From: Anaerolineae bacterium
GTDB taxonomy: Bacteria; Chloroflexota; Anaerolineae; Aggregatilineales; Phototrophicaceae
NCBI GenBank assembly: GCA_023382675.1
Contig: JAHDWN010000034.1
Span: forward strand, 1-64,000
Reading direction: 5' to 3'
DNA length: 64,000 nt
Shown piece after piece: positions 29,403 to 61,390 of this stretch. The notes beneath the pieces are model-generated. The model made no database searches and was not told the DNA's origin. It worked only from the letters and a program-made list of their open reading frames with translations. The position numbers were made by a program, and so were the translations under genes. Positions within the stretch are counted from its first letter, which is position 1; the number at the start of each line of letters is the position of its first letter.

Positions 29403-29496
<94 letters not shown>

Positions 29497-58441: not shown

Positions 58442-59014
58442 ATGAAGATTGGTGTATTGGCGCTGCAAGGGGCGTTTGTAGAGCATATCGCGCGTTTGCG
58501 GTCTTTGGGGGTCGATGCTGTGGAAGTGCGACTGCCGGAGCAGTTGGGCGACTTAGATGGCCTGATCATCCCCGGTGGCGAGAGCACGACGATTGGTCGG
58601 TTAGCGGTCGAGTTTGGATTGGTGGAGCCGCTGCGACAGTTTGCGCAGCAGAAGCCGGTGTGGGGAACGTGCGCGGGCATGATTTTCCTGGCGAAGGATA
58701 TCGGCATTGACCGGCAGCCGATCCTTGGAGTGATGGATATTGTCGTAAACCGAAATGCATTTGGACGGCAAATAGATAGCTTTGAAACGGATCTACACAT
58801 CGGCCCGATTGGCGATATTCCGTTTCATGCTGTCTTCATTCGCGCCCCGCTTGTCATGGAGGTTGCCGAGGGTGTTGACATCCTGGCGCAGTTGGAGGAC
58901 GGACGAATCGTTGCTGTTCGAGAAGGTCATCTTCTGGCTACAGCATTCCACCCGGAATTGACCGATGACGACCGCCTGCACCGCTACTTTATACAAATGA
59001 TCGAAAAGGCGTGA
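58442..59014 (+). CDS. pdxT: Pyridoxal 5'-phosphate synthase glutaminase subunit
   Basis: The 190-residue class I glutamine amidotransferase delivers ammonia to the PdxS synthase for PLP formation. The triad is Cys77 in WGTCAGM, His170 and Glu172 in AFHPELTDD; PGGESTTIG is the Pdx2-specific oxyanion loop. GAGGAAA lies before the ATG. The partner pdxS is not adjacent and not in the window, which is unusual. Its location beside three PLP enzymes suggests cofactor supply for the amine route. Confidence 0.95.
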   Translation: MKIGVLALQGAFVEHIARLRSLGVDAVEVRLPEQLGDLDGLIIPGGESTTIGRLAVEFGLVEPLRQFAQQKPVWGTCAGMIFLAKDIGIDRQPILGVMDIVVNRNAFGRQIDSFETDLHIGPIGDIPFHAVFIRAPLVMEVAEGVDILAQLEDGRIVAVREGHLLATAFHPELTDDDRLHRYFIQMIEKA

Positions 59015-59139
59015 AAATGACCGAATTTGATCAAGATTCACCGTACAAAGTTGTCGACTCAATGCTACAATTTGCCCCGCCTTGCGCTACAATGGCAGGT
59101 AATGATTATTCGGGCAATCCAATTCAGGCGAGTGAAAGC

Positions 59140-59418
59140 ATGGAATTGATCCGTATCCTGAACCGGGTTGATGATTTCGACGGTTCTGATGACGATTTTG
59201 AGGATGACTTCGAAGTTGAAGAGGATGTCGAATACGACGTAGAAGAGGATCTAGGCGACGACTTTGATGAGGAGGAAGAGATCCTCGGCGATTTCGATGA
59301 TGACGACGATTTCGACGATTTCGATGATGACGACGACTTCGACGACGACTTCGACGACGATCTCTATGACGATGAGGATGATGACTACGACTACGATGAC
59401 GATGAGGATGATTTCTAG
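59140..59418 (+). CDS. Extremely acidic Asp/Glu-rich protein
   Basis: The 92-residue protein begins MELIRILNRVDDFDG and then consists almost only of Asp, Glu, Phe and Tyr, in repeated FDDDDDF-like units. Net charge is strongly negative. The ATG at 59140 follows two GCTACAAT boxes (59064 and 59086) that look like -10 elements; an upstream ATG at 59011, overlapping pdxT by 4 bases, would give 135 residues. Similar acidic tails occur in DNA-mimic proteins, RNA polymerase delta subunits and calcium binders. No function can be assigned. Confidence 0.7.
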   Translation: MELIRILNRVDDFDGSDDDFEDDFEVEEDVEYDVEEDLGDDFDEEEEILGDFDDDDDFDDFDDDDDFDDDFDDDLYDDEDDDYDYDDDEDDF

Positions 59419-60419: not shown

Positions 60420-60472
60420 CCGCTCGATTTCGGGGGGTTTACAAGGCCAAAAAACGGGTGTAGAGTGGGTCT

Positions 60473-60500
60473 ATCTGTGGAAGAAACGCCACAGATTTTA
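60473..60500 (+). terminator. Terminator-like hairpin
   Basis: An 8-bp perfect stem ATCTGTGG (60473-60480) and CCACAGAT (60489-60496) with an 8-base loop, followed by TTTA. It separates the propeller gene from the leader of the DUF1003 gene. Confidence 0.75.
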
Positions 60501-60525
60501 ACCTTATCTAAGAGTGAAGGAAGTC

Positions 60526-60594
60526 ATGGACGCTGACAGTAGTTTCGAACAGTTGCCACCGTTAGCGGACGGCAATAGCGTCCACGATCGTTAG
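60526..60594 (+). CDS. Candidate 22-codon leader peptide upstream of the DUF1003 gene
   Basis: The ATG at 60526 has AAGGAAG at 60516-60522, and the frame ends in TAG at 60592-60594. The product begins with acidic alternating residues (MDADSSFE) and has a Pro-Pro pair (QLPPLAD) at codons 11-12. Its coding sequence contains the 5' arm (60570-60580) of an 11-bp pairing with 60632-60642, so a ribosome in this ORF would prevent that pairing. The arrangement is like that of Mg2+-responsive leader peptides such as MgtL, known for acidic and Pro-rich starts; equivalence is inference. Confidence 0.55.
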   Translation: MDADSSFEQLPPLADGNSVHDR

Positions 60595-60670
60595 CCCCCT
60601 CCTGTATAGCGTGACCGGGGAGTAGCGACCGCGCTATTGCCGACCCCGCATCGCGGGGAAACCCGGTTAC
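60567..60670 (+). ncRNA. Structured leader RNA with crossing helices (pseudoknot)
   Basis: Three pairings can be read directly. P-a: 60570-60580 with 60632-60642, 11 bp perfect. P-b: 60611-60619 with 60662-60670, 9 bp with one G-U. P-c: 60644-60649 with 60653-60658, 6 bp, nested in P-b. P-a and P-b cross, so together they form a pseudoknot. A local hairpin GGAC/GTCC (60567-60570, 60580-60583) competes with P-a. GGGGAGTAGC at 60617-60626 matches the 5' loop of the Mn2+ (yybP-ykoY) riboswitch, but its usual 3' partner is absent. I cannot assign a known class. Confidence 0.6.
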
Positions 60671-60720
60671 GGAAGTTCCTGTTCCACAAACATCTGCATA
60701 ACGCATCCGCCTTTGCCGCT

Positions 60721-60772
60721 GTGAACGCGGTCTGTTGGATCGCGCTCACCTGTATGTCCTGTGGAGAGGTGA
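60721..60772 (+). promoter_or_regulatory. Mutually exclusive anti-sequestor and SD-sequestor hairpins
   Basis: TCACCT (60746-60751) pairs exactly with AGGTGA (60767-60772), the Shine-Dalgarno of the DUF1003 gene, and would block translation. The same segment, as CGCGCTCAC (60741-60749), also pairs with GTGAACGCG (60721-60729), 8 of 9 positions, which would free the site. This is the usual design of a translational expression platform. Confidence 0.65.
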
Positions 60773-60775
60773 CCC

Positions 60776-61390
60776 ATGTACAACGATCTGCTCCTCAATC
60801 GCATTGTGCCTACTGTTGACGATGCCGACGAGCAAATCCAAGACCTGATCGACGAGATCGAAGAACTCGACAGCCTGCTCAGCCCGGAAGCTCAGCAGCT
60901 CATCCGCGATCTTCGTCCCCACATCGTGACCGACGACGTTTACGAGCAAATCGACGAAGGAGCCTCACTTGGCGACCGCTTTGCCGACAAGCTCGCAACG
61001 TTTGCCGGTAGCTGGAAATTCATCATCATGTTCGTGGTGCTGATGGCGGTCTGGATGACCGGGAATCTCGTCTTGCGCGAATTGGCATTTGACCGCTACC
61101 CGTTCATTTTGCTCAATCTGGCTTTGAGCACCCTGGCAGCGCTGCAAGCGCCCGTGATCCTGATGTCGCAGAATCGCCAGGCAGCCAAAGACAGGGCACA
61201 GGCTGAGAACGATTACCAGATTAACCTCAAGAACGAAGTTGAAATTGCGGACCTGCACCGCAAGCTCGACTCGCTGACGGATGCGCTCACGATTCAGACA
61301 CGGCTGGTGAATGCGCTCGTTGAGGCGCGGCGTAAGGAACTGAACGCGACTGTGCGCGTCATGGAACGTGCCGGAGCGACGGAACGTTAA
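60776..61390 (+). CDS. DUF1003 membrane protein
   Basis: The 204-residue protein has a helical acidic N-terminus (DADEQIQDLIDEIEELDSLL), then the DUF1003 core: DRFADKLATFAGSWKFIIMF, a first membrane helix, YPFILLNLALSTLAALQAPVILMSQNRQ with the second helix, and a long C-terminal coiled coil (KDRAQAENDYQINLK). The family is often encoded next to Mg2+ transport genes (MgtE-type) in Actinobacteria, from memory, and its function is unknown. The SD AGAGGTGA is held in a hairpin. A long structured leader with its own small ORF precedes the gene. Confidence 0.9.
   Translation: MYNDLLLNRIVPTVDDADEQIQDLIDEIEELDSLLSPEAQQLIRDLRPHIVTDDVYEQIDEGASLGDRFADKLATFAGSWKFIIMFVVLMAVWMTGNLVLRELAFDRYPFILLNLALSTLAALQAPVILMSQNRQAAKDRAQAENDYQINLKNEVEIADLHRKLDSLTDALTIQTRLVNALVEARRKELNATVRVMERAGATER

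Follow-up and report, generated by a model that had tools for sequence, protein, structure and literature searches.

A gene for a DUF1003 protein of 204 aa (60776–61390; Pfam PF06210, E 3.6e-39) is preceded in the window (i.e., the whole 64,000-nucleotide stretch of Anaerolineae DNA that was analysed) by a leader containing a short open reading frame within a potentially complex RNA fold; unless stated otherwise, all features are on the forward strand. The question raised by this locus is whether translation of the leader ORF controls the gene behind it and, if so, in response to what. The preliminary description had proposed that ribosome progress through the leader sets the RNA fold and so controls a protein possibly tied to divalent cations. 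As a whole, this interpretation is partly supported by the results presented below.

Distribution and identity of the leader element

A close DUF1003 ortholog (E ≤ 5.2e-64) was found at 25 loci in 61 genomes (the host's own and 60 relatives), and alignment together with inspection by eye placed the same leader before 24 of these genes, the exception being locus L056. A covariance model (R1) built from 15 of the 24 leader copies was refined to a second model (R2) from 49 copies. With R2, the element was found in 49 of the 154 genomes of the host's order, in 50 copies with E ≤ 1.1e-10 each, values that are flattering for its own copies because the model was built from copies that it then found. 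Genome G022 is the only one of the 49 with two copies (C13:460205-460373 and C12:452029-452196), of which one precedes a DUF1003 gene and the other an MgtE gene. The alignment of the element (A3) has 49 rows, among which neither the 50th copy (L049) nor a 51st and weak one (L054; E 3.5e-5, searched without filters) is included. Genome G105, which gave E 0.009 with R1 and was absent with R2, was taken as a false carrier. Under strict filters, R2 matched 12 genomes out of 396 sampled from the class, each of the 12 belonging to the host's order, and a single one, the window's own, out of 400 sampled from the phylum; outside the host's order these samples yielded no match, with the limit that weak distant copies could go undetected because seven candidates were scored per genome.

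The window was also compared with Rfam. No family matches at the element, where the best score (10.7 bits, E 9.7, against a cut-off of 65.3) is on the opposite strand. The comparison with the M-box suggested in the preliminary description gave no RF00380 match above the Rfam gathering threshold in the window, and none under strict filters in 98 genomes of the host's family, while the Bacillus subtilis and Lactococcus lactis controls were matched. Kinship with yybP-ykoY RNAs, suggested by the string GGGGAGUAG, was rejected, there being no Rfam match. Elsewhere in the window, at 29404–29496 of the reverse strand, a selenocysteine tRNA was recognized (RF01852, 72.4 bits). Listings of open-licence papers on DUF1003, leader peptides, Mg2+ leaders and Chloroflexota showed us no description of the element. 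The 291-nt leader folds 3.2 standard deviations better than 200 dinucleotide shuffles, none of which equals it. It is nearly certain that the element is a conserved regulatory RNA, apparently undescribed, with a leader ORF under coding constraint.

The leader ORF and the coevolving helices

Transcription of the leader may start from a sigma-70-like promoter (TTTACA-N17-TAGAGT; 60438–60466), which has similar counterparts in 39 of the 47 copies examined; in 38 of these 39 the -35 box reads TTTACA (60438–60443 in the window), and the -10 box ends 52–67 nt upstream of the leader ATG. Further upstream, a 135-aa ORF (59011–59418, forward strand), unmatched in Pfam and rich in Asp and Glu along its long C-terminal half, overlaps the end of the gene for a SNO-type glutamine amidotransferase (58442–59014).

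The 22-codon leader ORF with its ribosome site, noticed earlier in the window, was confirmed. It occupies 60526–60594 with its TAG stop codon (MDADSSFEQLPPLADGNSVHDR) behind the Shine-Dalgarno (SD) sequence GAAGGA (60516–60521), and its frame is kept throughout the alignment, all 49 copies having an ATG start and 19–28 open codons. In each of them the frame ends upstream of the 3' strand of helix PB, and the ATG-to-PB spacing (41–53 nt) is identical modulo 3. A proline (60556–60558 in the window) is present at codon 10–14 of every copy, written with three different codons (CCG, CCT and CCA), and is followed by a second Pro in 34 copies and by His in nine. One or two acidic residues occur at codons 2–4 in 45 of the 49 copies, in none of which was an EPDP motif found. 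The ten codons ending in PB show a synonymous excess of 1.93 in frame vs. 1.07 and 0.74 in the shifted frames, and the first six codons 1.24 vs. 0.49 and 1.68, the test being not clean here. For the translation of the leader, to which these patterns point, the spacing rule is better evidence than the synonymous-change test. A local hairpin between the Pro-Pro and Gly-Gly codons was also considered and rejected (z 1.3). In three copies of genus g30, family f8 (L049, L050 and L051), an additional short reading frame (MRSLLPAxxPRxKSxxE), preceded by a site resembling GGGAGG or GGAGGG, lies over the 3' half of the element; it is absent from their relative L052.

The peptide pattern M..GSS..EQxPPLxGG is conserved among the copies, as would be expected if the leader encoded a functional small protein and the role of the RNA were limited to controlling this small ORF or mRNA stability; the M-box of Mycobacterium tuberculosis controls a conserved uORF, according to an excerpt of PMC12810186. 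Both ends of the peptide are, however, variable in length and sequence, much of the conservation coincides with the strands of helices PA and PB, and the element precedes three unrelated genes. We consider this explanation very improbable.

For the RNA itself, the following helices were distinguished: (i) P0, a 5'-terminal hairpin (60474–60480 with 60489–60495); (ii) P1, which joins the start-codon region (60527–60535) to the ORF end (60576–60584; z 5.7–5.8) and overlaps PB by 5 nt in the window's genome; (iii) PA, between the Glu-Gln codons (60547–60552) and 60679–60684 (z 4.4–5.4), a proposed anti-anti-SD helix; (iv) PB (60570–60580 with 60632–60642; z 7.9–8.5); (v) the pseudoknot PD (60610–60619 with 60662–60671; z 6.0 in a targeted test); (vi) the PC hairpin (60644–60649 with 60653–60658); (vii) the P5 hairpin (60721–60732 with 60738–60749; z 4.4–5.0); and (viii) P6 (60682–60688 with 60760–60766), which covers part of the SD sequence of the DUF1003 gene (GGAGAGG, 60763–60769). 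PB is the perfect 11-bp pairing reported in the preliminary description; it holds on the sequence and coevolves in relatives. The crossing 9-bp stem reported there (60611–60619 with 60662–60670) likewise stands, with one G-U pair, and can be extended to the 10 bp of PD.

In a model-guided alignment 94% of the PA, PB and PC cells are paired, and this falls to 29–59% when the partners are slid by 1–3 columns. Changes on both sides were seen at 18 of the 23 pairs (PA 4/6, PB 8/11 and PC 6/6), and cells with such changes number 139 vs. 32 in shuffles, none of the 500 shuffles being as high. The PC hairpin is absent or unaligned in some copies, and PB fits poorly in both copies that precede CorA, where 8 and 5 of its 11 pairs form. 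Because the model-guided alignment is fitted to the structure, a second test was run that is free of column alignment within windows; in this window-pair test, two windows from the same copy are searched for their best stem, which is compared with the stems obtained when windows are swapped among copies. Anchoring covered 47 of the 49 copies (L109 and L121 were not entered). From these, the scan used 38, doubtful anchors (L097, L112, L119, L105 and L114) and near-duplicates (L037, L050, L051 and L118) being dropped. Targeted tests, among them that of PD and the Pro-Pro controls, used 44 of the 49 aligned copies, with near-duplicates removed.

The scan of 637 window pairs (median z -0.02, 95th percentile 2.5) recovered seven helices. 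P0 was the strongest coevolving pair (z 13.1), and PB (8.5), P6 (6.7), P1 (5.8), the pair PA3 x SD (5.4), P5 (5.0), PD (4.5) and PA (4.4) were also all within the top 17 rows. Two pairs outside the assigned helices, pb5-8 x pa3-20 and pb3-18 x pb3-2, scored 5.2 each. When one copy per genus was drawn (12 of 39 copies, 200 draws), the mean z was clear for P0 (6.7), PB (4.8), P1 (4.2), PA (2.9) and P6 (2.9) and weak for PD (1.9) and P5 (1.5), with six controls between -0.9 and 1.1. The region following PC, paired with the Pro-Pro region as an intended control, gave z 3.7 and may include an extension of PA. The covariation of the stems and the conservation of the ORF in 49 of 49 copies are two of the points on which the preliminary description had made its reading depend, and in this part of its proposed tests, which was run, the reading was not refuted.

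A strand shared between the leader codons and the next ribosome site

Two mutually exclusive hairpins had been proposed downstream, one exposing and one hiding the SD sequence of the DUF1003 gene. The exposing one, P5, has a coevolving counterpart (z 4.4), while the hiding one (60746–60751 with 60767–60772) shows no coevolution in 40 copies (z -0.8). The helix that does coevolve at the SD sequence is P6, which the earlier reading had missed (z 8.1; this value, those of the SD hairpins and the block-position scan described below are based on 40 of the 47 copies). The claimed coupling of the leader RNA to the ribosome site of the next gene is thus supported, via P6 instead of the hairpin.

The strand that forms P6 is shared with PA: CUGUUC (60679–60684) pairs with the Glu-Gln codons GAACAG (60547–60552), UUCCACA (60682–60688) pairs with UGUGGAG (60760–60766), and 60682–60684 belong to both. 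Across copies, the flanks change in concert, e.g., CCAG with CUGG, CCAU with AUGG, UUCCAUACCG with CGGUAUGGAG and CUUUCG with CGAAAG. In a comparison of 43 of 44 copies, the best PA and P6 stems have nucleotides in common in 40, for which the overlap of the search windows is partly responsible. SD bases are covered by the best P6 stem in 29 copies, and in the other 14 that stem lies beside them. In the MgtE copy L092 and the CorA copy L113, PA and P6 are each copy's own and match the SD sequence of the gene behind it (for L112, the second CorA copy, no anchor could be set). The candidate helices are mutually exclusive, one at the SD sequence and one with the leader ORF, as in leaders that hide an SD site. 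The anatomy of the putative switch, as shown by sequence and coevolution, comprises a hairpin at the 5' end, the conserved leader ORF, the pseudoknotted core and the anti-SD strand.

How a ribosome on the leader would act on this strand was assessed from folding energies, computed for nested folds only (the pseudoknot was ignored) in 44 of the 47 copies and sensitive to block placement. When a block of 29 nt with the invariant Pro codon at its centre was held single-stranded, opening the SD site cost on average 1.4 kcal/mol more, with a rise in 29 of 44 copies, a fall in five, and a rise in 10 of 12 genus means. With the block one codon further on (42 copies, four of which, L123, L094, L096 and L100, sat on an earlier Pro) the mean was 2.2, up in 37 and down in one. 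Blocks at the start codon (-0.02) and the 5' hairpin region (-0.18) gave no net change, a stop-codon block had little effect (0.58), and a block over the whole ORF gave 1.9. In the position scan, the effect peaked for a block centred 10 nt past the first PA base (+2.4 kcal/mol, up in 33 of 40 copies), and a further maximum, of 1.7, lay close to the 3' strand of PB. In the window's own copy the response is weak, from 11.7 to 12.6 on Pro, 11.5 one codon on and 13.9 for the whole ORF, and the response of L092 depends on placement (from 7.6 to 7.2 centred on Pro, 11.3 one codon on). A ribosome at mid-leader is therefore predicted, on average, to hinder the start of the next gene; the computed energies agree on average with an inverse relation between leader translation and downstream expression.

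The reading that we prefer, to which we give about an even chance, is a cis-acting, leader-peptide-controlled translational switch of the anti-anti-SD type for Mg2+-transport genes of the host's order within Anaerolineae, with leader translation as the off signal; its Mg2+ response and polarity we infer. The anti-SD strand would have two alternative partners, the Glu-Gln codons (giving PA) and the SD region of the downstream gene (giving P6). Ribosomes at mid-leader, near the invariant Pro codon, would cover the Glu-Gln codons and block PA, so that P6 would hide the SD site and the gene would be off. If ribosomes failed to reach or to stay on the leader, as with MgtL-type peptides at low Mg2+, PA, PB, PC and PD would form, the SD site would be freed and the gene would be on. 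The helices would also allow a Rho-linked or an aptamer-assisted version.

In the former, leader translation would act through Rho-dependent termination and not through SD hiding, an uncovered stretch rich in C behind the leader stop codon (60595–60603 in the window, for example) being a possible rut site or, alternatively, an extra anti-SD sequence. CCUCC, CCCUC or CCCCU occurs within 25 nt past the stop codon in 38 of 49 copies, and corA of Escherichia coli uses Rho together with corL, as an excerpt of PMC11552253 describes. A pure Rho mechanism leaves unexplained, however, why P6 follows the SD flanks from one downstream gene to another, and this explanation is quite unlikely. Post-stop CCUCC as a second anti-SD sequence was rejected, its coevolution with the SD site reaching just z 2.1.

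Magnesium-transport genes and known leader systems

The gene next to the element encodes DUF1003 in 46 of the 49 copies, MgtE in one (the second copy of G022) and CorA in two, i.e., all three copies not before DUF1003 stand before Mg2+ transporters. A short ORF directly before an Mg2+-transporter gene, the arrangement known from MgtL and CorL, was thus found in 3 of 49 copies, and MgtE or MgtC is the second gene in three more loci, MgtE directly following DUF1003 in G035 and G084 and MgtC in G080 (some loci are too short to show a second gene). These copies and the DUF1003-MgtE and DUF1003-MgtC pairs support the tie to divalent cations suggested at the outset, and the element is likely tied to Mg2+ transport. 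Against the preferred switch stands the fact that the gene behind 46 of the 49 copies has no known function, DUF1003 being without an assigned one in Pfam. The fetched flanks of five non-Chloroflexota DUF1003 loci yielded no gene for MgtE, CorA or MgtC, and in five loci (streptococcal ones plus three more from outside Chloroflexota) neither an M-box nor any other Rfam RNA was matched near DUF1003. In genus g13, the long ORFs that follow DUF1003 were considered as MgtE candidates; tblastn found MgtE only in L092, L111 and L122, and the remaining ones resemble, by eye, a convergent FAD-linked oxidase. Two loci (L057 and L058) encode distant DUF1003 proteins with, as judged by eye, a cyclic-nucleotide-binding-like domain seemingly fused in front.

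A multi-helix pseudoknotted core before Mg2+ genes may also be read as a direct riboswitch, in which the core binds Mg2+ or another ligand and sets P6, with the leader ORF secondary; the M-box fills such a role elsewhere and was not found in the host's family (0 of 98 genomes, under strict filters). An aptamer would not need the leader frame and the Pro codon kept in 49 of 49 copies, a core stabilized by Mg2+ would favour PA and open the SD site at high Mg2+, the wrong sign for importers, and by eye there is no long invariant loop of the kind typical of aptamers. A direct riboswitch is, in our judgement, unlikely. That the ribosome is the Mg2+ sensor of the leader-peptide switch, in a new RNA class other than the M-box with an independent origin in Chloroflexota and a spread to DUF1003, MgtE and CorA genes, we suggest tentatively, at somewhat below even chances. 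If this is true, ribosome-based control of Mg2+ uptake would no longer be confined to enterobacteria but would also operate, through an unrelated RNA, in a distant phylum. DUF1003, so far without a known function, would gain a testable role in Mg2+ homeostasis, and the coding and pairing constraints on the same codons would become separable by experiment.

Among known systems, translation-attenuation leaders such as erm resemble the element in that the place of a ribosome within a leader ORF decides which of two kinds of fold forms, one hiding and one freeing the start of the next gene. In erm, stalling frees the next gene, whereas here a mid-leader ribosome is predicted to hide the SD site. 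The M-box (RF00380), including that of M. tuberculosis pe20, resembles the element in its Mg2+ genes, a leader uORF and a translational platform (PMC12810186, in excerpt) and differs from it in that RF00380 matches neither the window nor, under strict filters, the 98 family genomes.

The closest parallels are drawn with enterobacteria, where translation of mgtL and corL lowers the expression of mgtA and corA and low Mg2+ relieves this effect, as excerpts of PMC11552253 and PMC11282234 describe. The mgtL-mgtA system shares with the element a short translated ORF before an Mg2+-transporter gene, a leader fold that depends on translation (proposed here) and acidic and Pro residues near the N-terminus (PMC11282234, in excerpt). 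It acts via access to a Rho-dependent terminator (same excerpt), whereas the element would share one anti-SD strand between the leader codons and the next SD site in a pseudoknotted fold, and its peptide, unlike MgtL, lacks EPDP and is milder in acidic content. In corL-corA of Salmonella and E. coli, uORF translation is inversely related to corA expression, and control is Rho-dependent with two distinct secondary structures (PMC11552253, in excerpt). Two copies of the element also precede CorA genes, and for the element, unlike corL, a pseudoknot and hiding of the SD site are predicted.
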